Below, one piece after another: positions 256 through 20,181 of a stretch of DNA of 25,778 bases. The stretch's first letter is position 1. The number at the start of each line of letters is the position of its first letter. The stretch spans positions 1 through 25,778 of IMG/VR virus record IMGVR_UViG_3300035698_017052; one strand, given 5' to 3'. A model generated the notes under the pieces. That model saw nothing but the letters and a program-made list of their open reading frames with translations, made no database searches and was not told where the DNA came from. The stretch is from a virus. Position numbers and translations under genes: made by a program.

Positions 256-867
256 TTATGCCGATGGTTCGGCTGGATAGAATTTTGCTCTATCAAAACG
301 AATTGTAGTTTCAACATCTGCAGTATCGCTTGGAGAATAGTCCAAATCTCCCCAGTTTGTGACTTGTGGCCACGCGCCGCTGAGAATCCACGATTCCATT
401 GTTCCACCATGACCGTCAAGCATTCTAAGAGTCAAGTCCATCTTATACTCGTTATTATGATCTCCCATATCAAACGGGGCATAATTACCAGTTGTTGGAG
501 CTATTTGATTATTATCAGAAAATCTCCATACAGAGTTTAACCATCTATGTAGTGACAGTTCGGAAGCACTTGACGAACCCATATTTGGATCAAACTTTAC
601 GTCGAAAATAGTAATCCCAATGGTTTCCCACACAGGTTTACCTGCGATGAAGTGTTTTTCGTGGAGGTGATCAATTGGTGTTTCTTCGACGGTTAGAGTG
701 GGTCTGTTAGCTACTCTAGCGTACCACATATATTGACTAACGGCTTCGTCTTCTACTGCACCACCTAGATATTTCCCCATGCTTATGGTCCAACGAAATT
801 TTCTTTTAAAAACGCTCGTTCTTCCTTTTTCACCGGAGATATAACCAATATCCATGTTATGTGCCAT
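256..867 (-). CDS. tail tube protein (T4 gp19-like)
   Basis: 203 residues, a little longer than T4 gp19. The product would polymerise into the rigid inner tube of the contractile tail. The N-terminus (GEKGRTSVFKRKFRW) and the Thr/Asp-rich C-terminal strand (DTADVETTIRFDRAKFYP) fit a tube fold, and the gene directly follows the sheath gene, as gp19 follows gp18 in T4. The start is set by an AAAGGAG at good spacing before the ATG at 865-867. A second tube-like gene starts 19 bases after its stop, so two tube isoforms may be made. I recognise it mainly by position, length and strand pattern. Confidence 0.82.
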   Translation of the reverse strand: MAHNMDIGYISGEKGRTSVFKRKFRWTISMGKYLGGAVEDEAVSQYMWYARVANRPTLTVEETPIDHLHEKHFIAGKPVWETIGITIFDVKFDPNMGSSSASELSLHRWLNSVWRFSDNNQIAPTTGNYAPFDMGDHNNEYKMDLTLRMLDGHGGTMESWILSGAWPQVTNWGDLDYSPSDTADVETTIRFDRAKFYPAEPSA

Positions 868-3714: not shown

Positions 3715-3818
3715 TAATTAGTGTTATTTAATTAATGTTAAATTATATATTGGTTTTTAAGTGAAATTTAAAAAATATTTAAGTAAAATTTAAAAAATAT
3801 TATATGCTGGTGTTTATA

Positions 3819-7210: not shown

Positions 7211-7411
7211 CTAGTCTTCTTTTTTTGTAATTTTCTTCACCGATACATCTCCTCTCATTTTGAGAGCGTCTATTTGTGATGAATAACGCTCTTCGGGAAT
7301 ATCAAAAGTTTTCTTCCATGGAAGAACTATTATTGATGTGCCTCGCCCATCACGAGTTTTTAGCGCTAATTGTACTGGCCCGCGCCTTTTATTTGTAACT
7401 CTGTAAATCAT
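7211..7411 (-). CDS. small basic protein of unknown function
   Basis: 66 residues, MIYRVTNKRRGPVQLALKTR at the start, rich in Lys/Arg, with several predicted beta strands (SIIVLPWKKTFDIPEE). I do not recognise it. The start has a strong AAAGGAG close before the ATG. It follows the gp15-like gene by 21 bases on the same strand and ends one base from endonuclease copy B. Its place between gp15 and the sheath gene suggests a small virion or assembly protein of the tail module; no catalytic motif is visible. Confidence 0.75.
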   Translation of the reverse strand: MIYRVTNKRRGPVQLALKTRDGRGTSIIVLPWKKTFDIPEERYSSQIDALKMRGDVSVKKITKKED

Positions 7412-7432
7412 TTTTTTCTCCTTTTTTTTATC

Positions 7433-8251
7433 TTATAGCAACGAAGGTTCTTCTCCCTCTTTTTTTTCTTCTATAATTGTCTCAATTTCACTGTTCGAAG
7501 GAGCTAAATCTCCCATAAGGACATATCTCTGTGTAATCTTATGAACTGTTTTATCTCTCCTAATTGGTTGAACAATATGACTTTCTGCTATAAAATTAAA
7601 AACATATTTTAGTATTCTTACTTGTCTGTCTCCTACATCATCATTAACGTTGTTTGAAGATCCAGTTATTTTAACTGGTGTTTCCCAAGGAATACCTTCG
7701 GGATTTATATATGCTATTGGAGAGAATTTCTGCATGATTTGTTCTACCATCTGCATAAGGTGTTCATAATATTTAGCCCACAAAGTGAGCGTAAAATTCA
7801 TATCAATTGGAATACCTTTTGATATTCTATAAACTACGTCAAATGGTTTTCTCTCTTGTCCATATGAAGCTTTTCTTTTAGCTTCATGATAAACATATCT
7901 TCCTTCTGATAAAGGAATATCTCCTCCCATTAAGGCTATCATTGGTAACTTAATTCTGTCGACTAGACCTGTATCTTGTCGATCTGGGTTATTTACAAAC
8001 TGTTCTCCAAAAGCATAAATAACAGCTTTTTCTTGTGTTCCCCAGATTATTGGAACTGGATATATGGTGTTATCATCTTCGTTCAAAATTGTTACGTCGG
8101 AAAATAAATCTAAAACTGCACGATTGGTGTTTCTTATACATTTAGAATATCCATAAACATATTGTCTTCCAGCTTTTGATGTAGGTTGATATTGCCGAGG
8201 TGTTTGGATTTCCGGATTATCAGCTACTGATTTATTTATTTTCTTTGTCAT
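7433..8251 (-). CDS. tail sheath stabiliser / tail completion protein (T4 gp15-like)
   Basis: 272 residues, the same length class as T4 gp15, which caps the tail and binds the neck. Matching features in order: GYSKCIRNTNRAVLDLFSDV at the N-terminus, VPIIWGTQEKAVIY (T4: VPITYASKEH), a LPMIALMGGDI strand, the PIDMNFTLTLWAKYYEHLMQ-MVEQIMQKFSP helix region (T4: MIYELSIFTRYEDDMFQIVEQILPYFQP), PWETPVKITG, and RQVRILKYVFNFIAESHIVQP. The alignment with T4 is from memory. AAAGGAAA lies 11 bases before the ATG. Long upstream gap (8252-8524), described separately. Expected to act at the head-proximal end of the tail. Confidence 0.75.
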   Translation of the reverse strand: MTKKINKSVADNPEIQTPRQYQPTSKAGRQYVYGYSKCIRNTNRAVLDLFSDVTILNEDDNTIYPVPIIWGTQEKAVIYAFGEQFVNNPDRQDTGLVDRIKLPMIALMGGDIPLSEGRYVYHEAKRKASYGQERKPFDVVYRISKGIPIDMNFTLTLWAKYYEHLMQMVEQIMQKFSPIAYINPEGIPWETPVKITGSSNNVNDDVGDRQVRILKYVFNFIAESHIVQPIRRDKTVHKITQRYVLMGDLAPSNSEIETIIEEKKEGEEPSLL

Positions 8252-8367
8252 AATACAAAAATTTCCTTTTTAGATATAAGTTCCCTTCTTATACTTATAT
8301 ATAAGAAAAAATCCAAAAATAAACTGGAACCTAAACCCAAATAGGGAATTCAATTGTTAATATAATG

Positions 8368-8481
8368 TTATGAACCGACACGGCCTTGAATGGTTATGTC
8401 TTCTTGCCACGAACGATTAATGTCTATTTGTATCTGACAAGCGTTAATTTCCGTAGTTCCTACGGTATTTTTAAATTTATT
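8368..8481 (-). pseudogene. orphan 3' end of a lost coding gene
   Basis: The otherwise empty gap 8252-8524 contains 37 codons with no start codon, opening after a TAA at 8482-8484. It reads KNTVGTTEINACQIQIDINR then SWQEDITIQGRVGS and stops at 8368-8370. Composition and codon choice look like the structural genes, and unlike the AT-rich flanks. I do not recognise the protein. By analogy with the displaced gp13 end at 20001-20111 it may be a gene tail left by an insertion or recombination. A very short gene with a non-ATG start is less likely. Confidence 0.5.
8451..8472 (+). terminator. possible plus-strand hairpin terminator
   Basis: CCGTAG-TTC-CTACGG (6-bp perfect stem, 3-base loop) is followed by TATTTTT. 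It has the form of a weak rho-independent terminator for plus-strand transcripts, but it lies within the orphan coding tail, so it may be chance. Confidence 0.3.
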
Positions 8482-8524
8482 TTATATAAGTCTCTATTAA
8501 TATTCACGCGATTTTCAAAAGATA

Positions 8525-8899
8525 TTAATTGATACTCTGTAACAACACTTGTAGATCAGCGGTAACATCTTGCCCCGCCATTGCTTTTTGTTTCATTTGT
8601 TGTAATGAACGCATTATAGCAGGATTAGCAGCGCCTTGAGCTTGCTGGGCCGTGACAGGTGTTGTTGCGGGTATTGAAGCATTAGGAGTAGCAATTGAAG
8701 CACCAGGAGCAGCAATAGTTCTCATCATTGCTTCTTTAGCTATTTTTTCTTGTTTATCTTTTTGTTCTTGAGCAAGAATTTTATCACAACTATCAATGTA
8801 GCCTTGAAGCTCTTGATCTAGTACCAGTGATTCTATTAGCTCTGTTGCTTTATGATATTGCTTTTCGCTAAGATCTTTCATTTTTGATTCTATTATCAT
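8525..8899 (-). CDS. small protein with helical N-terminus and Ala/Pro/Thr linker
   Basis: 124 residues, not recognised. Residues 1-60 are charged and likely helical (KDLSEKQYHKATELIESLV, then AQEQKDKQEKIAKEA). Residues 60-100 are a low-complexity linker (PGASIATPNASIPATTPVTA). The C-terminus is a second helix (MRSLQQMKQKAMAG). AAGGAAAATAAA before the ATG supports the start. It lies between the gp14-like and gp15-like genes on the same strand, so a small virion or assembly protein is plausible. No enzyme motif. Confidence 0.7.
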   Translation of the reverse strand: MIIESKMKDLSEKQYHKATELIESLVLDQELQGYIDSCDKILAQEQKDKQEKIAKEAMMRTIAAPGASIATPNASIPATTPVTAQQAQGAANPAIMRSLQQMKQKAMAGQDVTADLQVLLQSIN

Positions 8900-8915
8900 T
8901 TTATTTTCCTTATTT

Positions 8916-8975
8916 CTATATAGTATTTTGATCTTTTTTATATTTTGCCATAGTTGGACTTAGAGGAGCTGCCAT
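8916..8975 (-). CDS. possible 19-residue mini-ORF or gene-start remnant
   Basis: ATG at 8973-8975 reads MAAPLSPTMAKYKKDQNTI and stops. A GAGGAA lies about 12 bases upstream, and the stop falls 16 bases before the next gene's start, so it could be a leader coupled to that gene. The MAAPLSP opening resembles virion protein starts, so it may instead be the 5' stub of a truncated gene. Low certainty. Confidence 0.3.
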   Translation of the reverse strand: MAAPLSPTMAKYKKDQNTI

Positions 8976-9026
8976 GTTTTTATTTTAATTCCTCTTTATA
9001 TTTTATATACACTGTTACGTATTATT

Positions 9027-9578
9027 TTAATAAAGTTTAACATTGAGACTATTATCACCAGAGTCTTTTCGAGTAGGATGTTTCTCTGCTCGAGATGGTT
9101 GATATTTTCTACCTGTTACTTGAAGCCTATATTTCTGCCAAAGTTTGTATGGATTTTCTTGATCATTCTGAATTATTTCAAACCAGCTCCGATCCCATTT
9201 ACAGAAAAACAGGCTTTTTATTCTTGGCATTTCTTTGACTATTTCGCGCCATTTCGTAAGATTGAAATTAAAAAGAACTTCATCCGGAGAATCGATTCCA
9301 AACGTGTTAAGATTTTGAACTGGCCGGACGGGCTCGAATTGGCAAGTTAATTCGAATCCTTCCTGGGCAATTATACTGTCGATACTTTCCATATATAAAG
9401 TATCATAGTTAGTATCTATGTAACAAGGATAATATAGGATTGGTGACCCCGCTAATTCCACAATTTCTTGGTCCCATTTATCAAGTAGTTCTATATCTTG
9501 ACCGTCAGGACGGTAACTTTTCAACGAGTTACGTCCACCAACCGTATAAGAAGATCCATCTGATTTTTTTATAGTCAT
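9027..9578 (-). CDS. neck protein (T4 gp14-like)
   Basis: 183 residues. The pattern SPILYYPCYIDTNYDTLYMES, then EGFELTCQFEPV, DEVLFNFNLTKWREIV, FFCKWDRSWFEIIQ and KYRLQVTGRKYQPS follows T4 gp14 (CYYVPREYVSPDLIFGED, GMQVQDEVTLSINPN, DNSLFEINWVEP, RKITAGKFIYSGE). T4 gp14 works with gp13 to close the head and join the tail. The order gp13, gp14, gp15 is kept on this strand. The ATG at 9576-9578 starts MTIKKSDGSSYTVGGRNSLK; no clear Shine-Dalgarno is seen. The first 34 codons are duplicated beyond the endonuclease at 11871-11972, and a shorter relative lies at 15979. The match is remote and from memory. Confidence 0.6.
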   Translation of the reverse strand: MTIKKSDGSSYTVGGRNSLKSYRPDGQDIELLDKWDQEIVELAGSPILYYPCYIDTNYDTLYMESIDSIIAQEGFELTCQFEPVRPVQNLNTFGIDSPDEVLFNFNLTKWREIVKEMPRIKSLFFCKWDRSWFEIIQNDQENPYKLWQKYRLQVTGRKYQPSRAEKHPTRKDSGDNSLNVKLY

Positions 9579-9612
9579 GAAATTATATATGTATATATCT
9601 ATATTAATTATA

Positions 9613-11895
9613 ATGAAAAAATGGATTAAAGAAAATTTAATAAATAATAATAAATTAATAAACAGCCGAATGTCAAAAAAGTATTTATTAAATAATCATA
9701 ATAATTTTTATTACAAAATAATAAAGATTACTTATTTTTTGCCAAAAAATGTAAAACTAAATGAAAGAATTTATTGTATAATTAATGATATAACTGAACT
9801 AGTTAGATGTAGAACATGTAAGATAAATAGTCCTAGTTTTACAAGTTATTCTAAAGGGTATAATAGTTTTTGTTGTTGTAAATGTGCTCAAAACAATAAA
9901 AATGTATTAGAGAAATATAAGCAGACAAATTTAAAAAAATATGGTGTAGAATATCCTCTTCAGTTGGAAAAAATAAAAGATAAAGTTAAACAAACCAATA
10001 TGAAGAAATATGGCGTTGAGTGTTCTTTACAAAATAAAGAAGTACAAGACAAAATTAAACAGACTAATTTAAAGAAATATGGTGTAGAACATCCTCTTCA
10101 AAACAAAGAGATAAAACAAAAAAGAAAACAAACTTGTTTCAAACGTTTTGGCGTAGAACATCCTATTCAAAATAAAGAGATAAAACAAAAAATCAAAAAT
10201 ACAAATTTAGAAAAATACGGAGTCGAGTTTGCCATTCAGTCTAAAGAAGTAAAAGATAAAATTAAACAAACTAATAAAAAAAAATATGGATTTGAATATC
10301 CAATACAATCCGAAGTCGTAAAACAAAAAATCAAAAACACAAATTTAAAAAGATATGGAGTAGAGTACCCTATTCAAAATAAAGAAGTTCAAGAGAAGTA
10401 TAAGCAAACATGTAAAGAGAAATATGGAGTAGAATATCCTGTTCAATTAGAAAAAGTAAAAGATAAGATTAAACAAGCAAACAAAAAGAGATATGGAGTG
10501 GAATATGCTGCTCAATCTAAAGAAATACAAGATAAAATAAAACAAACCTGTATAAGAAAATATAATGTTAAAAATGTATTTCAATTAGAAGCTGTAAAAG
10601 AGAAAATCAAGCAAACATGCAAAGAAAAATATGGCGTAGAATATCCCGTTCAATTAAAAAAAGTGCAAGATAAGGCCAAGCGAACAAATCAAAAGAAATA
10701 TGGCGTAGAGTATGCTACTCAATCGAAAAAAGTAAAAGATAAAATAAAACAAACTAATAATAAAAAATATAATGTTGAAAATGTATTTCAATTAGAAACC
10801 GTACAAGATAAAATCAAGCAAACATGCAAAGAAAAATATGGCGTAGAACACCACACTCAATCTCATATTGATAAAAAAAATCTTCTTATTTTAGAAGATA
10901 AATTTATAATGAAAAAACTACATCATAATAATAAGTTGTCATTATCAGAAATAGCTAGTTTGCTTGGAGTAGTTCAGAGCACGATAAGTCAATGTTTAAA
11001 AAAACATAAAATTGAAATAAAAAAATATAATTTTAATATTCCGGAAAAAGAAATAGTTGATTTTATAAACATAACAAATATTCAAGTTAATACAAGAAAT
11101 ATAATACCACCCTATGAATTAGATATTTATCTACCAGACTACAAACTGGCTATTGAATTCAATGGTTTATATTGGCATAGTAAAAAAGATAAAGATTACC
11201 ATCTAATAAAAACTGAAATGTGTAAAGAGCAAAATATTCAATTACTCCACATATTTGAAAATGAATGGACAGATCCGATAAAACAAGAAATATGGAAAAG
11301 TATAATTAGTGGTAAACTAGGTAGGAATGATAGAATATTTGCTAGAAAAACCGAAGTTAGAGAAATTAAAGATAATAAATTGATACAAAAGTTTCTCAAT
11401 GAGAATCATCTGCAAGGATTCTGTCCTAGTAGTATAAAATTAGGTTTATTTTATGAAAATGAAATAGTTAGCTTAATGACATTTGGTAAAACTAGGTTTA
11501 GTAAGAAATATCAATATGAAATGATACGTTTTTGTAATAAGAAGTTTATTAGTATTATTGGCGGAGCATCTAAGTTGTATAAGTATTTCACTAAAAACTA
11601 TAAACCTGAAAGCGTAGTTAGTTATGCTGATCGGCGTTATAGTGATGGTAATTTATATAGGAAATTAGGATTTGATTTCAGTCATTATTCCACGCCAAAT
11701 TATTGGTATTTCAAAAGCAATGAAAATATTCTATTATCAAGAATAAAATTTCAAAAACATAAACTTAATGGTTTATTAGAGAGTTTTGATGAAAATAGAA
11801 GCGAAGTAGAAAATATGGCGGGTAATGGTTATCGAAGGATCTGGGATTGTGGTAATATGATATATATAAACTTATCAAGTAGTTTTATATCTTGA
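9613..11895 (+). CDS. modular homing-type endonuclease, copy C (14 repeats)
   Basis: 760 residues from the ATG at 9613, chosen because MKKWIKENLINN aligns with the other copies; an upstream in-frame ATG at 9577 would overlap the gp14 start codon. Parts: LNERIYCIINDI, a Cys cluster (CRTCKIN, then CCCKC), 14 KYGVE units at an unbroken 23-residue period, an HTH-like segment (LSEIASLLGVVQSTISQCL), a nuclease core (ELDIYLPDYKLAIEFNGLYW, then LLHIFENEW), and a full GNAT-like C-terminal domain ending RIWDCGNMIYINL. The last residues (SSSFIS) are read from antisense gp14 sequence, so the reading frame was extended across the junction with a displaced gp14 start. By far the longest repeat array of the set. 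Probably a homing endonuclease whose site lies in gp14. Confidence 0.87.
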   Translation: MKKWIKENLINNNKLINSRMSKKYLLNNHNNFYYKIIKITYFLPKNVKLNERIYCIINDITELVRCRTCKINSPSFTSYSKGYNSFCCCKCAQNNKNVLEKYKQTNLKKYGVEYPLQLEKIKDKVKQTNMKKYGVECSLQNKEVQDKIKQTNLKKYGVEHPLQNKEIKQKRKQTCFKRFGVEHPIQNKEIKQKIKNTNLEKYGVEFAIQSKEVKDKIKQTNKKKYGFEYPIQSEVVKQKIKNTNLKRYGVEYPIQNKEVQEKYKQTCKEKYGVEYPVQLEKVKDKIKQANKKRYGVEYAAQSKEIQDKIKQTCIRKYNVKNVFQLEAVKEKIKQTCKEKYGVEYPVQLKKVQDKAKRTNQKKYGVEYATQSKKVKDKIKQTNNKKYNVENVFQLETVQDKIKQTCKEKYGVEHHTQSHIDKKNLLILEDKFIMKKLHHNNKLSLSEIASLLGVVQSTISQCLKKHKIEIKKYNFNIPEKEIVDFINITNIQVNTRNIIPPYELDIYLPDYKLAIEFNGLYWHSKKDKDYHLIKTEMCKEQNIQLLHIFENEWTDPIKQEIWKSIISGKLGRNDRIFARKTEVREIKDNKLIQKFLNENHLQGFCPSSIKLGLFYENEIVSLMTFGKTRFSKKYQYEMIRFCNKKFISIIGGASKLYKYFTKNYKPESVVSYADRRYSDGNLYRKLGFDFSHYSTPNYWYFKSNENILLSRIKFQKHKLNGLLESFDENRSEVENMAGNGYRRIWDCGNMIYINLSSSFIS
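9937..10902 (+). repeat. 14 x 69-bp in-frame coding repeats
   Basis: Each 69-bp unit encodes a KYGVE-type motif followed by a Lys-rich helix (typical unit: KYGVEYPLQLEKIKDKVK plus about five residues). KYGV codons fall exactly every 69 bases from 9937 to 10834. The third codon positions differ between units, so the array is old and not a recent slippage product, though units 8 and 11 are nearly the same. Presumed DNA-binding modules. Confidence 0.85.
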
Positions 11896-11972
11896 CCATC
11901 AGGACGATAACTTTTGAGGGAATCTCTTCCTCCGAGATTATAATTGGACCCATTTGATTTCTTTATAACCAT
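11871..11972 (-). pseudogene. displaced 5' end of the gp14-like gene
   Basis: Read from an ATG at 11970-11972 this gives MVIKKSNGSNYNLGGRDSLK then SYRPDGQDIKLLDK. It matches 27 of 34 residues of the start of the intact gp14-like gene at 9578, in the same orientation. Homology stops at codon 34, where the 3' end of endonuclease copy C begins. There is no rest of gene: the fragment is cut off by the endonuclease. The copies differ enough in DNA to come from different phages. Best read as the old gene start left behind when copy C invaded carrying its own gp14 start. Confidence 0.8.
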
Positions 11973-12022
11973 AAACATATATATAACTATTATTCGTGAA
12001 AACATCTATATTTAAATGAAAC

Positions 12023-13159
12023 ATGTTTAAAATTATCAAAGACAAAGACTCATATTTGAAATCATATAAAAATTTTCTGATTAATCCAGAAAAAGAATCA
12101 TTATGTTTTGTAAAAAATATTATATCGTGTAGTGATGTTGCTTCTATGTGGACCAATGATATTCATGAAATATTTGAAGAAAATAAACACGAGAAATGTT
12201 TTCCGGTAACTTTACAATCAAATGGATCTATTAATGACGTTCCTCAAAAATATGATTATAGTTATAGTGTGTTCATAATTAGAGATTATATATGGAAATA
12301 TATGCACAGATTTTTATTTGATAAATTTTTATTAAATAAAAATCTAAATCGGTATTGGATAGAATCATGTTATAAATATAATAACAACAGAATTTTGAAT
12401 GAAACTAACTGCGAAGGATTAATATTATTTTTTAATCCAATGAAATTGGATAAAAAACTCTTTAAGCAAACAAGTAATAGTTTTTGGATATTAAGTCCAA
12501 GAGTTGCAAATAATATATGTCAGTACAAAAATGTTCTTTCTTTTATTAAAGAAAATAATATCAAACTAAGCATTACTTCATGTGATAGTTCTTTTTATAA
12601 TTTTTCTATACTAGATAAAATGAATATCCCATGGACTAATCAGATGAGAAGTTGGCAAGAAGGAACAACTTTTTATACTTGCCCATATGGAGAAAAACAT
12701 TGGATGGAAAATCTTTTTTTCTGTACAAAAGAAAAAAAGATAATTGATTTATTGAATGTTTATAATACATGGTGGGAGAATGATAATTGTAATCCAGATT
12801 ATATTTGGCCTTTACAAGAAGAGTTCATAAGATGTAAATGTGGAACACTGTACAGGCCGATGAATTTTCACTCACACCGTTGGAAATCATTTCGCAATCA
12901 TAATGGAAAACTAGTAAATTATCAAAATCCAAAGTTTGATTTTATTAAAGATTTTGAATATTTTCAATTAGTGCAACAAGAAAATACTAGTCATTTCTTT
13001 ATTCATTCAAATAAAAAAGTGGATAATAACGTATTAGATAGCGTGCGTTGTTTCATACGTACGTTTTATAAAAAACAATTTGAAATATATTTTCGCCACT
13101 ATATATATTTAACAGGAAATAAAAGCCCTGTTTTTTGGTCTGAAACCAAACAAAAGTGA
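12023..13159 (+). CDS. unrecognised enzyme-like protein, possibly PaaK-type adenylate-forming
   Basis: 378 residues, first gene of a four-gene plus-strand operon. No confident family. The order of motifs resembles short phenylacetate-CoA-ligase/LuxE-type adenylate-forming enzymes: a Ser/Gly loop (LQSNGSINDVP, about residue 65; family TSGSTGKP), SFWILSPRVANNIC with FIKENNIKLSIT, an RSWQEGTTFYTCPYGEKHW block (about 213-231; family STEGxxxxECxxGxxH), and CKCGTLYRPMNF before a basic segment (family CxCGRxxP then GR). The canonical loop is degenerate, so activity is uncertain. If correct, it would activate a carboxylate as AMP ester for the peptide pathway downstream. The gene ends in front of the next gene's AAGGAAG. 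Very AT-rich. Start ATG at 12023 has only a weak ribosome binding site. Confidence 0.4.
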   Translation: MFKIIKDKDSYLKSYKNFLINPEKESLCFVKNIISCSDVASMWTNDIHEIFEENKHEKCFPVTLQSNGSINDVPQKYDYSYSVFIIRDYIWKYMHRFLFDKFLLNKNLNRYWIESCYKYNNNRILNETNCEGLILFFNPMKLDKKLFKQTSNSFWILSPRVANNICQYKNVLSFIKENNIKLSITSCDSSFYNFSILDKMNIPWTNQMRSWQEGTTFYTCPYGEKHWMENLFFCTKEKKIIDLLNVYNTWWENDNCNPDYIWPLQEEFIRCKCGTLYRPMNFHSHRWKSFRNHNGKLVNYQNPKFDFIKDFEYFQLVQQENTSHFFIHSNKKVDNNVLDSVRCFIRTFYKKQFEIYFRHYIYLTGNKSPVFWSETKQK

Positions 13160-13176
13160 TTTATAAGGAAGAATTA

Positions 13177-14271
13177 ATGATATCTATGTCTAATAAATAT
13201 TTTGAGTTATTTTTGCACAAGAATATTTTAATAAACGAAAATGCACCAGAAATAAATTATTCTTGTGCAAAATGCAGAACAGATAATCAAGAAGGATCTA
13301 AGTTTTGTTCGAATTGCGGAAACTCTTTATTATTATCAAATAATAGTTTATATTTTATTTGTGACTCGTTGGATCAAATTGATCAACAAGCAATATCAGG
13401 ATTACAATCAAATATATTCATTTCCTCTGGATCTATAGGTTCGGCTCAAGCAGATTATCAAGATTTCAAGTATTATATAGGTTTTGGCGATAAAATATAT
13501 GAATTTATGAACGAGGAGTTCGCGTTCGAAATTAGCAAGTCTTTTAATGGTTTTATAAAAGATCAAGAATTAGAAGATTCATATGAAGATCTAGAATTAG
13601 ACGTTTTATTCATATTTCCAAATAATCATTTAATTGGTGATATTAGGAATAGATTATTATTCCCGATACTAGAACTTTCGCATTTATTTAAATCTTTTGG
13701 AAAAGAAATTAAAATAGGTATTAATTGTGAACAAGAAAATATAAGTTTTTCTTCTATTTTTACAGAAAATATGAAAAACGAGTATAGATCTAATGTTACT
13801 CAATTAGAAGAGACGTATAACAATTTAATATTTTTACCTAATTTGGTACCGAATAAATATCTAGAGACAAGTAAAACACTTGTTTTTGTAGACCCGCTAG
13901 ACTCTAGAATTTTTTATGCAGATTTTATAAAAAATAAATCATTCATTTTTAATAGTATAGATGATCTGTTATTGAAGAACTTCATTAACGATGAATTACT
14001 ACGGCAACATTATAGCTCCTTGTATTCTTCGAGAAATTTTAGAAATATTTTTTCATCTTTTATTTCAAAAAAGAAAAATTATAGAGAATTTATCAATCAG
14101 TTCTATAATTTTTATGAGGATAAAAGTGCTGTTATAAATAGTCACAATTCTTCTTTGTGGAGAGTTAATGTAATAGATAGATTTAATAATTTGATAAGCA
14201 ATCCAGTTGTAGATCAAATAATACCCGACGTTTCACTTGATGTCAAAGAGTGTCTTTTGAATATAATTTAA
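13177..14271 (+). CDS. zinc-ribbon protein of the peptide-modification operon, function unknown
   Basis: 364 residues from the ATG at 13177, which has AAGGAAG at correct spacing; a GTG at 13156 would overlap the previous stop but lacks that support. Residues about 30-52 form a zinc ribbon with two Cys pairs (CAKCRTDNQEGSKFCSNCG). The rest is not recognised: about 120-185 looks like an alpha/beta Rossmann-type strand-helix unit (LDVLFIFPNNHLIGDIRNRL, then GKEIKIGINCE), followed by a helical, Asn/Phe-rich C-terminal half. In this operon it could bind the precursor peptide or act as scaffold or partner enzyme. It ends 10 bases before the small peptide gene. Confidence 0.6.
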   Translation: MISMSNKYFELFLHKNILINENAPEINYSCAKCRTDNQEGSKFCSNCGNSLLLSNNSLYFICDSLDQIDQQAISGLQSNIFISSGSIGSAQADYQDFKYYIGFGDKIYEFMNEEFAFEISKSFNGFIKDQELEDSYEDLELDVLFIFPNNHLIGDIRNRLLFPILELSHLFKSFGKEIKIGINCEQENISFSSIFTENMKNEYRSNVTQLEETYNNLIFLPNLVPNKYLETSKTLVFVDPLDSRIFYADFIKNKSFIFNSIDDLLLKNFINDELLRQHYSSLYSSRNFRNIFSSFISKKKNYREFINQFYNFYEDKSAVINSHNSSLWRVNVIDRFNNLISNPVVDQIIPDVSLDVKECLLNII

Positions 14272-14275
14272 GGAG
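14270..14275 (+). promoter_or_regulatory. strong ribosome binding site of the small peptide gene
   Basis: AAGGAG, six bases before the ATG at 14282. It overlaps the upstream gene's TAA and supports high translation of the 69-residue peptide relative to its operon neighbours. Confidence 0.7.
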
Positions 14276-14281
14276 AATTTT

Positions 14282-14491
14282 ATGATTTCTATATTTTCAA
14301 TTAAAAAAACAAAGAAAACACAAGATGAATTCCAAGATAAAATCTTTGGCATTTCAGTAAAATCAATGATAATAAAAGCAGGAGGAACTGAATTATGTTC
14401 TATTGCTTATGACTCTGTTGATCCATGTAATTGGGGCGGCGGACCTCCACAGGAAACAGGAGAGGCGTGCGGTGGAAGTTGTGGCCCATAA
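14282..14491 (+). CDS. putative RiPP precursor peptide
   Basis: 69 residues. The N-terminal part (MISIFSIKKTKKTQDEFQDK and following FGISVKSMIIKAGG) is a charged, leader-like sequence. The C-terminal part is Gly/Cys/Pro-rich: four Cys in the last 32 residues, CNWGGGPPQETGEACGG and a final SCGP. A short Cys/Gly-rich peptide directly before a radical SAM enzyme is the usual layout of RiPP clusters, where the leader guides the enzyme and the C-terminal core is modified. It matches no precursor family I know. The final Gly-Pro and GGGPP turn are unusual. It could alternatively be a small structural peptide, but the neighbours argue against that. Start is secure (AAGGAG); 23 bases separate it from the next gene. 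Confidence 0.6.
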   Translation: MISIFSIKKTKKTQDEFQDKIFGISVKSMIIKAGGTELCSIAYDSVDPCNWGGGPPQETGEACGGSCGP

Positions 14492-14514
14492 AAGTTATTT
14501 AAAAGGAGATTGTT

Positions 14515-15996
14515 TTGATCCGTATATTTCAATGCGAACCATCATATGAAAATACTCCTTCCGGAATATTAAATTTTCTGATAAAGAATAAAGAAATCAA
14601 CATAGAATATACACAAGCCAAAAATAGCAATCAGGTTTCTAAATGGATAAATTCTATAAACAAATTTGATATTATCATATTTCCTTTTTATAAAGATCCT
14701 TTTTATCTTGGAAAAGATATAATTCGTAAAATTAGAAAACTTAATTATAACAATAAAATATATGCCTGCGGTCCGCTTGCGGTGTATTATCCGGAAAAGA
14801 CCATTGAATATTTTGGCGTTGATGACATTATTATAAACAACGAATTACCATTTGTGACATTTATAGATTATAAAAAAGGTAATTATAATCATGATTTAGT
14901 TTCTAAACCAAACAAGATGCGTGTAGATATCCCATTTAAATTAGAGTCAAGCATTCTCCATGTAATAGCTGTTCCTTATCCGTCGTGTTCTAATAAATGT
15001 TCTTTTTGTATCCGTAGAGATAAATTTTCATTATCACGTTTAGCATGTTATTCTCATAAAATGGATATCGATAGGATAGTAAGAATAATCAAGGAAAATA
15101 CCAATAAACAAAGAAAAATTGTTGCTATTCATGTTGACAATTTATTTAATCAATATTCATTAGATGAAATTCAAGAATTATTTGATAAAATAGATAATTT
15201 AGAAAACAAGATTTATAAGATAATTTTATGGGCATGTGTCAATGATATTCTCAAAAACAAAGAGTTTATCAAAAATATAAATAAAAATTTTTTAGTGCAA
15301 TGGTATGTTGGAATAGAATCATTTTGCAAAGTTTCTCTTGATAGATATCAAAAACCATTCTATAATCAAAATATAGAATTTTATGATCTTGTACAGGATA
15401 ACTATTTTATCAAAACAAATAATATTTTTGATATGCTTTTTATTCATTTTGATCCATGGACAACTCCAGAAGAAATAAAAATTAATATAGAGTTTTCTAT
15501 GAATTTTAACAAGAGATCTACTAAGTGTTCAAGGTCATCATATTTTTTAGTTTTACCACAAAGATTTTGGAGACCAATAAAAAATACTCCTTTATATGAA
15601 AGAGCCATAGAAGAAAATATTCTTATAAAGAAAAAAATGTCCCCTGTTGGAACATTTGTATTTGATTATGATGGGTATATCACATTAAAACAGCTTCCAT
15701 GGAAATTTCAGAACAAAAGATCTCAAGAAATTTTTGTTTTTTTATGCGAGCTAAGAGATTATTATTACAAAAATATAATTAAAAATACAAAAAGATTAGA
15801 TATAGTAAAAAATAGTAATGATAAAAGAAAACAATGTGTTGCATGTTCCGGATCAAAAAGAATTTTCAATGACGAATTTATACAGTTAGAAAAAATGATT
15901 CTTCGGTGGGTATCTAATAAAAAAAATTGCAGTAAAAAAGATATTAGAAAAAAATTATCCGAACTCAAAGACAAAGTTTTAGGATATAAGTATTGA
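14515..15996 (+). CDS. B12-binding-type radical SAM enzyme
   Basis: 493 residues with a TTG start, set by AAAAGGAGA six bases upstream. Residues 1-110 look like a cobalamin-binding-like Rossmann domain (FDIIIFPFYKDP, then NNKIYACGPLAVYYPEKTIE, FGVDDIIINNE). The radical SAM core follows with CSNKCSFC (C-x3-C-x2-C for the 4Fe-4S cluster, about residues 158-166), then VAIHVDNLFNQ, VGIESFCKVSLDRYQKP and MLFIHFDPWTTPEEI, all standard landmarks of this class. A C-terminal Cys pair (CVACSG, about 442-447) may bind metal. The B12 axial His motif is not clear. Expected to do radical chemistry (methylation, cross-linking or similar) on the peptide encoded just upstream. Its 3' end overlaps the convergent gene by 18 bases. 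Confidence 0.75.
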   Translation: MIRIFQCEPSYENTPSGILNFLIKNKEINIEYTQAKNSNQVSKWINSINKFDIIIFPFYKDPFYLGKDIIRKIRKLNYNNKIYACGPLAVYYPEKTIEYFGVDDIIINNELPFVTFIDYKKGNYNHDLVSKPNKMRVDIPFKLESSILHVIAVPYPSCSNKCSFCIRRDKFSLSRLACYSHKMDIDRIVRIIKENTNKQRKIVAIHVDNLFNQYSLDEIQELFDKIDNLENKIYKIILWACVNDILKNKEFIKNINKNFLVQWYVGIESFCKVSLDRYQKPFYNQNIEFYDLVQDNYFIKTNNIFDMLFIHFDPWTTPEEIKINIEFSMNFNKRSTKCSRSSYFLVLPQRFWRPIKNTPLYERAIEENILIKKKMSPVGTFVFDYDGYITLKQLPWKFQNKRSQEIFVFLCELRDYYYKNIIKNTKRLDIVKNSNDKRKQCVACSGSKRIFNDEFIQLEKMILRWVSNKKNCSKKDIRKKLSELKDKVLGYKY

Positions 15997-16557
15997 TATT
16001 ACTTTTTTCGAGTTATCAACAACTTCTATACTTATAATTTTCCAAAAACTTTTTTCCCACTCGCAAATAATTATATTGTCTATTTGTATATTTTGGTTTT
16101 TAGATATAATATATACTCTTTGATTTTTACTTTGATTTTCTATTTGAGCATATATTTTTACTTCTTTAGGACCTTCGATAGGATCGACATATCTATATAT
16201 GACAGGAGATCCGCCTTCTAATTCACGTTCGTTATTATCAACATTTTTTGTTTGATTGTTTCGCTTAGAGTTATATCTTTCCACTTCAAATTCTTTATCA
16301 AAATCACCCAGATAATTATCTTCAAATATATCTTTTTTTAAATTATTTTCTGATATTTGATTTTTTTGTTCTTGTGGTTCCTGCTCAGGAATAGTTATTT
16401 TAATTGATTTTACCGGATCTAGTAAAACTAAATCTCCGTAATTAAAAAAATTAATGTATTTGATATTATCAAAATCCCAAAACCTGCCTGATTTTCTTGA
16501 CAGTTTATTAGGTCCATTTAATTGATATACTTCCCCGTTAATCTGTTTGATCGTCAT
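15979..16557 (-). CDS. diverged gp14-like neck paralogue
   Basis: 192 residues. The start MTIKQINGEVYQLNGPNKLS parallels MTIKKSDGSSYTVGGRNSLK of the gp14-like gene, and the bases before both ATGs match (TATAATYTC). Near the C-terminus IICEWEKSFWKIIS parallels FFCKWDRSWFEIIQ. The middle (about 55-120) is a charged, Asn/Glu/Lys-rich, probably disordered insert, and the protein ends soon after the CEW motif without gp14's last segment. So it is either a second neck/connector subunit or a diverged duplicate. It lies 9 bases after the gene at 16567 on the same strand. More AT-rich than the main structural genes. Confidence 0.6.
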   Translation of the reverse strand: MTIKQINGEVYQLNGPNKLSRKSGRFWDFDNIKYINFFNYGDLVLLDPVKSIKITIPEQEPQEQKNQISENNLKKDIFEDNYLGDFDKEFEVERYNSKRNNQTKNVDNNERELEGGSPVIYRYVDPIEGPKEVKIYAQIENQSKNQRVYIISKNQNIQIDNIIICEWEKSFWKIISIEVVDNSKKVISILIS

Positions 16558-16566
16558 GAGATTATA

Positions 16567-16878
16567 TTAAATACTTCCAAGTCCTTGAAATTTCATGTTA
16601 AAATTAGACATTTCAATTACAAGTTTGGTTATATTTCTAACACCATTTATCATCATTCTGGCATTTTCTTTGTTTTGTTTTTGGGCCGTAGAATTTTCTA
16701 TTTTTTCCATTGCTAAATCTTTGGCTTTTTCAAAATCTGTCATAGCTGATATCTGGCTAATAAAATCCATATCAAATATGCCTTGCCCTATCTTTAAATC
16801 AGCTCTACGACGAGCGTCTTGAGCTTGTCTTTCGCCTTCTAGTTCAGAAGTTTCTAAATATTCTTTGAATGTTTTCAT
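16567..16878 (-). CDS. small helical protein with MKTFKEY head-targeting-like N-terminus
   Basis: 103 residues. Starts MKTFKEYLETSELEGERQ, then mostly helical and charged (DFEKAKDLAMEKIENSTAQK) to the end. The next upstream gene also begins MKTFKEY. T4 internal head proteins carry an N-terminal capsid-targeting sequence of the form MKTYQEFI that is removed by the gp21 protease; these two fit that pattern. The function is otherwise unknown. AAGGAA before the ATG supports the start. Likely a packaged or neck-associated protein, by inference. Confidence 0.65.
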   Translation of the reverse strand: MKTFKEYLETSELEGERQAQDARRRADLKIGQGIFDMDFISQISAMTDFEKAKDLAMEKIENSTAQKQNKENARMMINGVRNITKLVIEMSNFNMKFQGLGSI

Positions 16879-16893
16879 TTTTATAATTCCTTA

Positions 16894-17274
16894 TTATGAT
16901 CTATATCCAGTTATTATTTTATTGTTTTTCATTTGAGAAATATAATCTCTTGTATAATCTTTGCCAAGTGTGTTCCCCCACTCTTCTTCGTCTGAATATG
17001 AATCTACATGGAATGAAGATGGAACTAAATCTGTACTACCAAGAGCAGTGAAATCAATAGTGATATAATCAGGAAGTTTATATCCAGGAGCACCGCCTTC
17101 TAGTCCAAGTTCTTTGACTATTTCAGACATTGCTTTTTCAACATCTTCCTCTGTTGGACTTGGTACATCTAAATCAGTGGTATCATTAATTGTCCACGTA
17201 TAATTCCACGACCAATTTTTATCCATGTATTGTTTATATAATGGTTTGTTGATATATTCTTTAAATGTCTTCAT
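16894..17274 (-). CDS. acidic protein with MKTFKEY head-targeting-like N-terminus
   Basis: 126 residues from the ATG at 17272-17274, which has AAAGGAAA eight bases upstream; an in-frame ATG further up (17376) lacks support and would overlap the regulatory repeat. Begins MKTFKEYINKPLYKQYMDKN, then a Trp-rich strand (WSWNYTWTINDTTDL) and a very acidic region (PSPTEEDVEKAMSEIV, then DSYSDEEEWG). Shares only its first seven residues with the gene downstream, which points to a shared targeting signal and not to duplication. Possibly an internal or neck-region virion protein. A TATAAATA box lies about 110 bases upstream. Confidence 0.65.
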   Translation of the reverse strand: MKTFKEYINKPLYKQYMDKNWSWNYTWTINDTTDLDVPSPTEEDVEKAMSEIVKELGLEGGAPGYKLPDYITIDFTALGSTDLVPSSFHVDSYSDEEEWGNTLGKDYTRDYISQMKNNKIITGYRS

Positions 17275-17318
17275 TTTGATATTTCCTTTTATATTATTTA
17301 TTTGAAAAATTTCATTTT

Positions 17319-17360
17319 TGTACAATTTTTTAAATAAAAGGTGAAAAAAATAATTGTACA
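17319..17360. promoter_or_regulatory. inverted repeat (TGTACAATT / AATTGTACA) in a divergent control region
   Basis: TGTACAATT at 17319-17327 is the exact complement of AATTGTACA at 17352-17360. The arms lie between the leftward acidic-protein gene and the rightward MerR-type gene. Each arm holds a TGTACA palindrome, as in operator half-sites. The small MerR-type protein encoded just to the right is the natural candidate to bind it (inference). Confidence 0.45.
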
Positions 17361-17382
17361 TACTTATATATATCATAACATA

Positions 17383-17390
17383 TATTTATA
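17383..17390 (-). promoter_or_regulatory. T4-type late promoter box
   Basis: TATAAATA on the minus strand, the T4 late-promoter consensus, pointing at the MKTFKEY genes about 110 bases away. In such AT-rich DNA an 8-base match may be chance. Confidence 0.4.
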
Positions 17391-17403
17391 AAGGAGAATA
17401 TAA

Positions 17404-17568
17404 ATGAATGACATGTTATTGAAATTGCCCGAAGTAGCGAAATTGATTGGAGTGCACGTAGGAACTTTGCGTAGATGGGACAGAGAAGGAAAATTGAAAG
17501 CAACAAGAACACCAGGGGGACAAAGAAGATACCGCAAAAGTGAAATAGAAAAAATTATTAATGGATAA
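17404..17568 (+). CDS. 54-residue MerR-type DNA-binding protein
   Basis: Encodes MNDMLLKLPEVAKLIGVHVG, then TLRRWDREGKLKATRTPGGQ and RRYRKSEIEKIING. This is one complete winged-helix MerR-family head: helix-turn-helix LPEVAKLIGVHVGTLRRW followed by the wing TRTPGGQRRY. It closely resembles the N-terminal domain of IS607-type serine recombinases and small phage excisionases, but no recombinase domain follows. AAGGAG seven bases before the ATG makes the start secure. It probably acts as a repressor or recombination accessory factor; the adjacent inverted repeat (17319-17360) is a plausible site. It is on the plus strand among accessory genes. Confidence 0.8.
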   Translation: MNDMLLKLPEVAKLIGVHVGTLRRWDREGKLKATRTPGGQRRYRKSEIEKIING

Positions 17569-17574
17569 ATACTA

Positions 17575-17873
17575 ATGGATATAGTCACATATATCATTAA
17601 ACAGTAAAGAAATATAAATTATTTTGGGATGAATTTAAAGAAAAATGTGGATTTGACAACAAATTACGGAAAATCGGATTATCACTAGAAGATTTAATTG
17701 AAGAATATCAATTGATAGTAAAAAAATATGGAGAAAAAGCATTTAGTACTACTTGGATTATAAAAAATGGATATTTATGGTTATATCGACAAGTAAGTAG
17801 AAAATATAACATTCCATGGAAACAATTTATTCAAACGTGTAAGTCTAGAATAGAATTAAATTTTGAATGGTAA
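17575..17873 (+). pseudogene. small gene broken by a one-base frameshift
   Basis: The ATG at 17575 gives MDIVTYIIKQ and stops. A second frame, open from 17601 to the TAA at 17871-17873 but lacking any ATG near its start, gives VKKYKLFWDEFKEKC and ends RIELNFEW. One extra A in the AAA at 17599-17601 would join them into a single 99-residue protein. The second part (LSLEDLIEEYQLIVKKYG, then TWIIKNGYLWLYRQVSRKYN and IPWKQFIQTC) looks like a small helical DNA-binding repeat of the kind seen beside homing endonucleases, but I cannot assign it. Seven bases after the MerR-type gene, so probably one operon. Confidence 0.5.
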
Positions 17874-17900
17874 ATAAATAACTCTAAAAAGGATTTAAAT

Positions 17901-19574
17901 ATGTACAAAACAATTTTTACTCTTATTTTTATTTTTTTATCTGTTAATCTTATGGCAGATACTTATCAAATTAAAATGAAAAATGGAGTGATTATAAAAG
18001 CTACTAATGTAGTTTCCTTAGATGATACTAGATATTCAATTAATACAAAAGGTGGAAAAATTATACTCAATAAAGATAGAGTACGATCAGTCAGTAAAGA
18101 TAGAGTACGATCAGTCAGTATAAAAAAAGAACCCGTAGTTGTTCCAGTAAAAATAAAATCTAAAGTTACCTTACCAGCAAAAGTTACTCCTACTCCTACT
18201 CCTACTCCTACTCCTATTAAAAAATATAGCGAAGATTCATTAGGCATGACATATGATGAATTTATGAAAAAATTTGATAAATTTGGACACACGTTAGAAA
18301 TAAAAATGTATGATAATAAATGCAAATATGAATGCAGGAATATATACAAAAATAATAAAACAAAACAGGAACACAAACCTTATATTTTAAATATTTCTGT
18401 TAATGACGATGATGAAATTGTTGATATCTTAATGCCGTTTAACATGGTTAAAAATTCTGGTGGGAATGGTAATATTATGTTTGCGGTTGCTCTTTTGAAG
18501 AAAATGTTTTATTCATATGATTTTTTCAAAGATAAAAGTAGTGTCGAAGAAAAATATATTTTTTCAGTTGTTAGCGGTGATATTAAAATAGAATCTTCTT
18601 ATGATTCCGATCTAGGTCTTGGTATTTTACATATTTTTAATGTTAATTATGAAGAAGAACCTATTCGAAAGCAAAAAACATATAGCGATTATTCATTAGG
18701 AATTACTTACGAAGAATTTATGAATAGTTTTAATACCGCAAAAACAGATAAATTTAAAATGAAAAAGAACGGGAATATTTATTCTGGAATTAACCAAAAA
18801 GCATTCAGTTGTTTTTTACATATAAGAGTAAATGATAAAAAAGAAATAATTGAGATTGTTATGCCTTTTTCATATTCAACGAAAAAATTAATGCAATCTA
18901 TGTCAGTTACTGTTTATGTAGTTTCATTAAAAAGTCATTTTATAAAACATGAATTAAATGATAATCCTTGCGAAGATTGGGCGAAACGATTATCAACTAG
19001 ACCGTATGCAAATTATAATAAAACTTATACTAAAGATGAGATTTATCCAAACCAAACCATTGTGACTATTTTTATGAATCCTGATTTTGGAACGGGTTAT
19101 GTTCATGTTTATAAGAAATCAACACAAAAAATATATGGAAAAAACCCGAAAGATTTGCAAGATTTTTTACAACTTAATAGGTATAAAGATCTTGAAGAAG
19201 TTTGCAATGTTGACAATCTTTACATATTAAACGGTTTCGATGATTTTGCATCATTGGTTTCTTCAAAAACTGATAAGGAAGGAAATATTTACCAGATAGG
19301 TACACATTTTGGTTTTATGGATGGTTCTCCAGGGCCGGATGAAAATGAAATAAGAAAATCCGCCCTATTGCTTTCTAGTTTAGAGTATATTTTTGGCGAT
19401 CAAGTTACTCATAGGTGGGGAGCAATGCAAAAAATGTTTACGGCTTCTCTTGCAACTGATAGAGTTCAAAATACAGGAAAAATAGAACCTATCGAGGAAA
19501 TAATAGGCGGAGTTAGTTGTTCGATAGCAAAAAGTTTTTTGACGCTTGATTTTAAAATGGAAGTTAAAAAATGA
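17901..19574 (+). CDS. secreted two-domain protein with slippage-prone repeats, function unknown
   Basis: 557 residues. A Sec signal peptide (YKTIFTLIFIFLSVNLMA, cut after MADT or nearby) leads into a short beta-domain (YQIKMKNGVIIKATNVVSL), an exact duplication (KDRVRSVS twice), a Thr-Pro linker (PTPTPTPTP), and two related domains (SLGMTYDEFMKKF about 113-255; SLGITYEEFMNSF about 267-400, each with an acidic or basic turn then IVDILMPF or IIEIVMPF), followed by a unique C-terminal domain. Likely exported to the periplasm or cell surface of the infected host, perhaps as a phage-encoded cell-modifying factor. I do not recognise the fold. AAAAAGGA before the ATG supports the start. Its stop (19572-19574) overlaps the endonuclease remnant, which marks a recombination joint. 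Confidence 0.7.
   Translation: MYKTIFTLIFIFLSVNLMADTYQIKMKNGVIIKATNVVSLDDTRYSINTKGGKIILNKDRVRSVSKDRVRSVSIKKEPVVVPVKIKSKVTLPAKVTPTPTPTPTPIKKYSEDSLGMTYDEFMKKFDKFGHTLEIKMYDNKCKYECRNIYKNNKTKQEHKPYILNISVNDDDEIVDILMPFNMVKNSGGNGNIMFAVALLKKMFYSYDFFKDKSSVEEKYIFSVVSGDIKIESSYDSDLGLGILHIFNVNYEEEPIRKQKTYSDYSLGITYEEFMNSFNTAKTDKFKMKKNGNIYSGINQKAFSCFLHIRVNDKKEIIEIVMPFSYSTKKLMQSMSVTVYVVSLKSHFIKHELNDNPCEDWAKRLSTRPYANYNKTYTKDEIYPNQTIVTIFMNPDFGTGYVHVYKKSTQKIYGKNPKDLQDFLQLNRYKDLEEVCNVDNLYILNGFDDFASLVSSKTDKEGNIYQIGTHFGFMDGSPGPDENEIRKSALLLSSLEYIFGDQVTHRWGAMQKMFTASLATDRVQNTGKIEPIEEIIGGVSCSIAKSFLTLDFKMEVKK
18072..18119 (+). repeat. 24-bp perfect tandem duplication
   Basis: Two identical 24-bp units, 18072-18095 and 18096-18119, in frame, each coding KDRVRSVS in the secreted protein. 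A perfect copy suggests recent expansion. Confidence 0.9.
18186..18215 (+). repeat. hexamer microsatellite (ACTCCT x 5)
   Basis: Five perfect ACTCCT units encode the Thr-Pro linker of the secreted protein. A change in unit number by slippage would keep the frame and change linker length. Confidence 0.9.
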
Positions 19575-20004
19575 AAACAAAGATGAGCTAATTAGTTTAA
19601 TGACGTTTGGTAAAACTAGGTTTAGCAAAAAATATGAGTGGGAGATGATTCGTTTTTGTAATAAAAAGTTTACCTCTGTTACAGGTGGTGCTAGTAAATT
19701 GTTTCAGTATTTTATTAGGAATTATAAACCTGAAAGTATAATTAGTTATGCAGACAAAAGATATAGCAACGGTGGTTTATATAATAAATTAGGAATGATT
19801 TTTAGTCATAATAGTGAACCTAATTATTGGTATTTTAAATTACCCAATATGACTCTTTACTCAAGAGTAAAATTTCAAAAACACAAACTAAAAGTTTTAC
19901 TAGAAAATTTTAATGAAGATAAATCAGAAGTAGATAATATGCTAAATCACGGTTACCTAAGAATTTTTGACTGTGGTAATTCTGTTTATGTTTGGAAAAA
20001 TTAA
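19570..20004 (+). pseudogene. endonuclease C-terminal domain remnant (copy D)
   Basis: The frame matches only the last 145 or so residues of the endonuclease family: DELISLMTFGKTRFSKKYEW, MIRFCNKKF, GGASKLFQYFIRNYKPESII, SYADKRYSNGGLYNKLGM, NYWYFK, RVKFQKHKLKVLLENF and a final RIFDCGNSVYVWKN. The nuclease core, repeats and zinc cluster are absent. Homology begins within a few bases of the stop of the secreted-protein gene, so the front was removed when that island joined here. The open frame extends back to an ATG at 19546, so a stand-alone 152-residue GNAT-like protein could still be made. Its 3' end overlaps the displaced gp13 tail in the same way that copy E overlaps the intact gp13. Confidence 0.85.
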
Positions 20005-20111
20005 CCTATAATAATATTCAATGGTTCTTGCCACTTGTAAATCAAGTCATGTTCTAATTGTTTCTTTTCATCTTTGCCTTCTTGCAAAATTGTTGCCCCG
20101 TCTAAGGTTAC
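20001..20111 (-). pseudogene. displaced 3' end of the gp13 neck gene
   Basis: 36 codons plus stop: VTLDGATILQEGKDEK, then KQLEHDLIYKWQEPLNIIIG. It matches 31 of 36 residues of the end of the intact gp13-like gene (22068-22175). A 25-base stretch is identical (20089-20113 and 22156-22180). Homology stops sharply just before the Val codon, and the upstream sequence belongs to endonuclease copy E. The fragment has no gp13 start of its own. Best read as the old gene end left in place when copy E entered with a replacement end. Confidence 0.85.
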
Positions 20112-20128
20112 TCTAAAGCTATTACTAA

Positions 20129-20136
20129 TATTTATA
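20129..20136 (-). promoter_or_regulatory. T4-type late promoter box
   Basis: TATAAATA on the minus strand between the hairpin of copy E and the displaced gp13 tail. It would transcribe leftwards through the tail and antisense to copy D. A chance match is possible in this AT-rich stretch. Confidence 0.3.
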
Positions 20137-20139
20137 AGG

Positions 20140-20181
20140 AAATTGCTCCTTAATATACTATTATATATTAAGGAGCAATTT
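20140..20181 (+). promoter_or_regulatory. 18-bp perfect hairpin hiding the ribosome binding site of copy E
   Basis: Bases 20140-20157 pair perfectly with 20164-20181 around a six-base loop (20158-20163). The right arm contains the AAGGAG (20170-20175) and ends at the base before the ATG at 20182, so in a full-length transcript the site is buried. T4 homing endonuclease genes such as I-TevI use the same kind of RNA block against early read-through. Here a transcript starting inside the hairpin would free the site. It could also work as a bidirectional terminator. Confidence 0.75.

Follow-up and report, generated by a model that had tools for sequence, protein, structure and literature searches.

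A four-gene operon and its products

The DNA analysed here, referred to as the window, is the entire IMG/VR record IMGVR_UViG_3300035698_017052 (25,778 bp). Four open reading frames (ORFs) lie tightly packed on its plus strand, at 12023-13159, 13156-14271, 14282-14491 and 14515-15996, and an earlier inspection of the letters by themselves (hereafter, the sequence-only reading) had taken them for an operon that makes a ribosomally synthesized and post-translationally modified peptide (RiPP). The four-gene operon is confirmed: all frames are intact, three of the four have good Shine-Dalgarno (SD) sequences, and those preceding the peptide gene and the radical S-adenosylmethionine (SAM) gene are of the AAGGAG type. 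Its position as a plus-strand cluster inside leftward neck and tail genes is likewise borne out by the ORFs, with the tail tube, sheath, gp15-like and neck adaptor genes all on the minus strand. The operon comprises:

12023-13159, plus strand: gene A, a divergent PaaK/F390-type adenylate-forming protein of 378 residues, assigned by homology through huge-phage relatives
13177-14271, plus strand: gene B, a zinc-ribbon protein of 364 residues, otherwise unrecognised in fold (Pfam Zn_Ribbon_1, 1e-5)
14282-14491, plus strand: putative precursor peptide of 69 residues, SD sequence TAAGGAG
14515-15996, plus strand: radical SAM enzyme of the predicted cobalamin-binding class, 493 residues, TTG start with SD sequence (PF04055, 3e-8)

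The 69-residue Cys/Gly/Pro-rich peptide with a strong SD sequence is present as first described, and its gene ends 23 nt ahead of the radical SAM gene. The composition of the peptide is bipartite: the N-terminal 35 residues are Lys-rich, devoid of Cys and end in KAGG, while the C-terminal 34 residues are rich in Cys, Gly and Pro (TELCSIAYDSVDPCNWGGGPPQETGEACGGSCGP), with 15 such residues against a background of 8% (binomial 1.8e-8, for a choice of residues made post hoc). With this base composition, 69 consecutive codons would stay open by chance with a probability of about 0.001. The peptide has the look of a leader followed by a core, as judged from a single sequence for which a family alignment is impossible.

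In the radical SAM enzyme the CxxxCxxC motif noted earlier is real and occupies residues 158-165. The proposed B12-binding N-terminal domain is weak when taken alone (PF02310, E-value 0.26), and this short domain aligns partly to B12-class relatives; its support comes from the homologues found, which are B12-class radical SAM enzymes. They were obtained by a motif-limited genome scan covering at least 586 candidate stretches, so that the nearest relatives possibly lie elsewhere. Among the matches listed there are two relatives, both from Nonomuraea (28% identity, E-value 1e-12, and 26% identity, E-value 6e-11, by tblastn), which have the LDRYQK, FDPWTTP and SR motifs in common with the phage enzyme. 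These relatives match B12-class families, including BchE, ApyD and ArsL, with E-values of 1e-36 to 1e-30, none above cut-off, and a profile that includes them matches the B12 radical SAM enzymes OxsB (3e-18) and TokK in the PDB. By homology, the phage enzyme is a distant member of the cobalamin class. Membership of a family with a known small-molecule substrate, which the sequence-only reading had named as evidence against a RiPP role, was not observed, as no small-molecule equivalog was matched.

Upstream of the enzyme in both Nonomuraea loci there is a conserved ORF of 54-60 residues ending in LPDAAAILTYE(Y/E), followed by a ThiF-like protein that matches the thiazole/oxazole-modified microcin (TOMM) leader-binding family above cut-off (scanned in one locus, L002). 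Both loci also hold JmjC-like, major facilitator superfamily and cytochrome P450 genes, and the locus is probably a RiPP cluster, judging from its gene content. The cluster spans about 5700-13500 in L002 and L003 and includes a tetratricopeptide repeat-like gene.

Other searches with the operon proteins yielded little. Viral contigs gave no match when scanned with one protein at a time (radical SAM enzyme, peptide or neck gene), and motif-directed searching for A, B and the radical SAM enzyme was equally fruitless; in the motif-directed and genome scans the query alignments were padded with partly randomised copies of the query, which steered the choice of motifs only and are not evidence. The operon proteins had no tblastn matches in phages and plasmids. 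Nothing useful came from about 400 genomes of the phylum of the Nonomuraea hits when they were queried with all operon proteins but the peptide, a weak match of gene A among them being spurious. Two weak peptide matches were also rejected: that in Nonomuraea gerenzanensis (E-value 5) is fortuitous and has no radical SAM gene nearby, and that in a related phage locus (L163) has no corresponding small ORF.

Gene A has no match in Pfam or NCBIfam, yet the PaaK-like order of motifs seen in it earlier is supported by homology through PaaK-like proteins of related huge phages, here called pk, g401 and g403 (from contigs G400, G401 and G403). In blastp, A has E-values of 1.5e-11 to g401 and 3.9e-11 to g403; in hhalign, it matches the profile of all three with a probability of 96.3% (E-value 1.5e-9, score 73.2, where none of 50 shuffles exceeded 24.0). 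The protein pk in turn matches TIGR02304 (5.9e-8, below cut-off) and bacterial PaaK-like members (hhalign 95.8%), and the phage set as a whole matches bacterial PaaK-like sequences with an E-value of 1.2e-7, whereas a direct hhalign comparison of A with bacterial PaaK-like sequences was not significant. C220, H226, D254, C271 and C273 are invariant in the alignment of A and its phage relatives, so that the Cys and His residues of the zinc site are kept. We regard A, on this homology, which extends over its C-terminal half, as a divergent member of the PaaK/F390 adenylate-forming family. Its catalysis is uncertain because the P-loop is altered: A reads SNGSINDVP where g401 has TSGTTTGYP and g403 has TSGSTTGLP, and thus departs from the canonical ATP-binding (S/T)SG(S/T)TG.

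The zinc ribbon of gene B, also part of the original description, is real. The ATG at 13177 is more likely to be the start of this gene than the listed GTG at 13156 (371 residues, overlapping the end of A), because it is preceded by an SD sequence (aaggaagaattaatg). No relatives beyond the ribbon were found in related phages or in the other genomes searched, and a candidate assignment of B as a GT9 glycosyltransferase was not supported. AlphaFold2 models made without an alignment had a predicted local distance difference test score of 34-35 for A, and likewise for B, and a fold search with A returned nothing below 0.001 (PaaK ligases at ranks 35-41, E-value about 1); neither was used as evidence.

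A parallel cluster in a related huge phage, and a proposed RiPP-type modification

By protein similarity, the window phage is a relative of the 595-kb uncultured huge phage LR756511.1 (neck protein 42% identical; gp15, the tail/neck protein x183 and the tube 28-35%). Profiles built from pairs of window and LR756511.1 proteins gathered 111 related IMG/VR loci, some on contigs of 100-527 kb, with gp15 found in 107 of them, x183 in 91 and the neck protein in 54. A, B, the peptide and the radical SAM enzyme had no match at 1e-3 in these 111 loci, and the radical SAM profile detected no relative in LR756511.1.

Of 34 related records, 7 contain radical SAM genes. One of these, G400 (IMGVR_UViG_3300031991_000117, 157.8 kb), has gp15, sheath, x183 and neck genes in synteny (locus L080) and contains, in a row within 2.5 kb, genes for a methyltransferase, an 81-residue peptide (SD sequence AGGAG) ending in GFKIVDAGGCPPFNVA, and a 486-residue SPASM radical SAM protein. 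The best family of the latter is the TIGR04463 RiPP maturase (1.7e-55, 188.6 bits, below the cut-off of 525), and its SPASM domain matches TIGR04085 above cut-off. The gene for pk lies tail to tail with the SPASM gene; chance would produce about 0.03 adjacencies of PaaK and radical SAM genes over the 4.1 Mb searched (a post hoc estimate). The whole group, with the convergent PaaK-like gene, occupies 6951-10701 of locus L166, where the peptide gene is at 7695-7940 and the SPASM gene at 7950-9410. By its gene content, G400 seems to hold a clearer RiPP-like cluster than the operon of the window.

We propose, at about an even chance of being right, that the operon is a phage-borne cassette for RiPP-type peptide modification: non-structural cargo lodged in the neck/tail region, riddled with homing endonuclease genes, of a huge phage. 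RiPP-type modification is plausible and the best-supported reading. In its favour are the SD-equipped short ORF between enzymes and the bipartite composition of its product, the radical SAM relatives detected, among the matches listed, only in the RiPP-like loci of Nonomuraea, and the homology of A to the PaaK set that includes pk. It is strengthened by G400, a phage of the same lineage that independently groups a peptide gene with genes for a SPASM maturase-like and a PaaK-like protein. The 69-residue product would be the substrate, with the N-terminal half of about 35 residues as leader, its terminal GG as candidate cleavage site and the Cys/Gly/Pro-rich C-terminal 34 residues as core. The cobalamin-class enzyme might then introduce a radical change in the core, either C-methylation or carbon-carbon or thioether chemistry, while A may activate or bind a carboxylate that is either attached to the peptide or generated on it, and B may be an auxiliary enzyme or an adaptor. 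For maturation, and for export if there is any, the phage would rely on host proteins or on its own genes beyond this fragment.

Several observations weigh against this proposal. The peptide had no homologue among the viral contigs, plasmids and related loci covered, a search that left metagenomes and most bacterial genomes outside, and none adjoining any radical SAM gene, as the sequence-only reading had led us to look for; the peptide is therefore tied to the enzyme by position alone. The operon proteins have no match in Pfam or NCBIfam to RiPP recognition element (RRE)-type, other leader-recognition or maturase families, and the 25.8-kb window has no transporter, protease or immunity gene, the lack of transporter and immunity genes having been remarked on from the start. 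Some B12-class RiPP enzymes are known that lack an RRE. Identity to the radical SAM relatives, found in a motif-limited scan, is only 26-28%, the altered P-loop suggests that A may be unable to adenylate, and in G400 the gene for pk is convergent with the peptide and maturase genes and stands outside their operon. The earlier claim of a RiPP operon thus stands as to gene content, enzyme classes, RiPP-like anatomy and the G400 parallel, and falls short as to a peptide homologue and a leader-recognition domain. For its suggestions that the product kills competitors or decorates the virion, nothing was found.

The same families also occur in glycan settings in this lineage, which is why we hold the RiPP reading no more firmly. 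The gene for g403 (L176, 7812-9682) adjoins a GT2 glycosyltransferase gene, as does that for g401 (L175, 7079-9361), whose product is moreover fused to a GT9 domain; in G421/G410 a B12-class radical SAM gene stands beside a DegT aminotransferase gene in a sugar cluster near the neck gene; and the 527-kb contig G399 (L167, 4590-14743) has at least three radical SAM genes in the company of apparent glycosyltransferase and sulfotransferase genes. The operon could accordingly be a cassette for glycan or envelope modification, in which the PaaK-like and B12-class enzymes make or alter a sugar or acyl group to change a host-surface glycan, and the 69-residue product is a small protein with a carrier, metal-binding or structural role. 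We consider this a serious rival, if a less likely one: no glycosyltransferase, nucleotide-sugar or acyl-carrier gene lies in or beside the operon, the window enzyme has no detectable similarity to the radical SAM enzyme of the sugar cluster (E-value about 5), and a Cys/Gly/Pro-rich ORF of leader/core appearance directly before the radical SAM gene is left unexplained.

One lineage of huge phages may have acquired at least two unrelated radical SAM peptide-modification systems, cobalamin-class in the window and SPASM in G400, and may make modified peptides during infection. Both systems would have a PaaK-like partner and be cargo, either accessory or associated with homing genes; we offer this wider picture tentatively, as a possibility short of likely.

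Homing endonuclease genes and the insertion site

The remaining features of the window are:

256-867, minus strand: tail tube
936-3581, minus strand: sheath
3804-5549, plus strand: homing endonuclease HE1
5546-7210, plus strand: homing endonuclease HE2
7433-8251, minus strand: gp15-like tail sheath stabiliser
9027-9578, minus strand: x183, a conserved tail/neck gene on the far side of the insert formed by HE3 and the operon (34% to LR756511.1; homologues in 91 related loci)
9577-11895, plus strand: homing endonuclease HE3 (DUF7487 / phrog_3339), directly upstream of the operon
11868-11972, minus strand: duplicate of the first 35 codons of x183, between the end of HE3 and gene A (tblastn of x183 on the window; 77% amino-acid identity)
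15979-16557, minus strand: x192, a conserved phage gene at the 3' end of the operon (N-terminal matches in L080, L098 and L114, near x183 there)
17901-19574, plus strand: secreted-looking protein of 557 residues (signal-peptide-like start; internal repeat SLGMTYDEFMKKF / SLGITYEEFMNSF; no Pfam match)
19546-20004, plus strand: partial homing gene, a C-terminal fragment between the gene of the secreted-looking protein and the duplicated neck end
20074-22098, plus strand: homing endonuclease HE4
22068-23015, minus strand: neck adaptor
23084-24979, plus strand: homing endonuclease HE5

The usual order in relatives is neck, a gene of about 1000 residues, a gene of about 100 residues, an x192-like gene, a gene of about 135 residues, x183 and gp15; the x192-like proteins begin with M.IKD.DGKVY.LRGPNP and are encoded close to x183. 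In the window, the interval between x192 and x183 is filled by HE3 and the operon, and the gene of about 135 residues was not found. Related phages have other inserts in this interval, namely a peptidase-like gene of 413 residues in L112 and a gene of 413 residues in L126. The order of genes suggests that the interval is a hot spot of insertion, because the peptidase-like ORF of L112 occupies the same place in a related phage. That ORF (6765-8006) appears M16-peptidase-like by eye, with an HFLEH motif. A candidate paralogy of x183 and x192 was rejected, the similarity not being significant.

Five full and one partial homing gene are found among the tube, sheath, gp15, x183 and neck genes, which they bracket, and a homing gene also lies between x66 and the sheath gene in a relative (L037). 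The beginning of x183 recurs beyond HE3, as part of a direct repeat (9478-9590 and 11872-11984, 77%), and the C-terminus of the neck protein is repeated beyond HE4 (20004-20219, 53%). These duplications beside HE3 and HE4 suggest that the homing genes bring replacement ends for their target genes, and a homing gene may have moved the operon into place. The unusual siting among late genes to which the sequence-only reading drew attention is real, and is better explained by insertion next to homing endonuclease genes than by a late-gene function, because the operon and the late genes point in opposite directions. The gene at 17901-19574 is a further non-homing insert on the plus strand. In relatives such as L080, L038 and L078, one strand carries the neck and x192 genes and the other x183, gp15 and sheath, whereas all share a strand in the window (7433-23015); because of this difference, a local inversion seems to have occurred in or near the insert region.

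The setting raises two further explanations. The operon might be a decaying or captured bacterial fragment, brought by homing or recombination and without present function in the phage, which would agree with the altered P-loop of A, the absence of relatives of B and the peptide, the rearrangement implied by the duplicated gene ends around HE3, the absence of the operon from the related phages examined and its GC content (26%, the peptide gene excepted), which is that of the selfish homing genes (24-27%) and not of most structural genes (33-43%). Four intact frames, three of them with good SD sequences, the conserved radical SAM cysteines and PaaK-type zinc-site residues, and a dense packing atypical of debris make this improbable. 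Alternatively, the enzymes might mature a tail protein of the phage or a protein of the host, with no released peptide, and the 69-residue product would be an activator or chaperone. The location inside the neck/tail cluster fits this, and the giant Aeromonas phage 332-Vera is reported to have eight radical SAM genes in a structural cluster, an arrangement termed highly unusual (PMC12390700). We find it very improbable, given that a homing gene flanks the operon, that its direction is opposite to that of the late genes, and that it is missing from syntenic relatives in which the tail genes are the same.

Comparison with known systems

The cobalamin radical SAM RiPP clusters represented in NCBIfam by ApyD and rSAM_ocin_1 resemble the operon in the short ORF adjoining a B12-class radical SAM gene, and the window enzyme is related to that enzyme class through its Nonomuraea homologues. 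The operon differs in having no direct NCBIfam match, no RRE, protease or transporter, a peptide without homologues, and additional PaaK-like and zinc-ribbon genes. With the PaaK and F390 synthetase-related enzymes (TIGR02304), A shares, via its huge-phage relatives, the C-x-x-G-x-x-H ... C-x-C-G signature and the domain order, from which it departs in its altered P-loop, its great divergence and the absence of a direct Pfam or NCBIfam match.

RiPP clusters in huge phages are not described in any paper that our open-access searches turned up, which is no proof of novelty; host RiPPs, as opposed to phage-borne ones, have been linked with phage infection (PMC11118758). The phage-borne example found is the sublancin 168 cluster of the temperate phage SPbeta, with the glycosyltransferase SunS, the exporter SunT, oxidoreductases and the immunity protein SunI (PMC8270828), which arms the host. 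The window operon is similar in being a phage-borne set of modified-peptide genes, if our reading is right, and differs in lacking exporter and immunity genes and in having a radical SAM enzyme instead. A radical SAM peptide cassette in a huge phage, a phage of another kind, would suggest production of modified peptides that serve the phage itself, and G400 offers a second and clearer case for study. Its TIGR04463-type cluster shares with the operon an SD-equipped short peptide gene, a radical SAM gene, a nearby PaaK-like gene and the phage lineage, while its enzyme is of the SPASM and not the B12 class, a methyltransferase takes the place of the zinc-ribbon protein, and the peptides are unrelated.

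Finally, in homing endonuclease gene (HEG) islands, essential structural genes are bracketed by homing endonuclease genes (PMC10448857), as they are in the window. Here, in addition, a non-structural enzyme operon lies among the homing genes and the ends of target genes are duplicated beside them. The arrangement fits the HEG-island picture with enzyme genes added as cargo and, if this is correct, would widen that idea from structural genes to enzyme operons.

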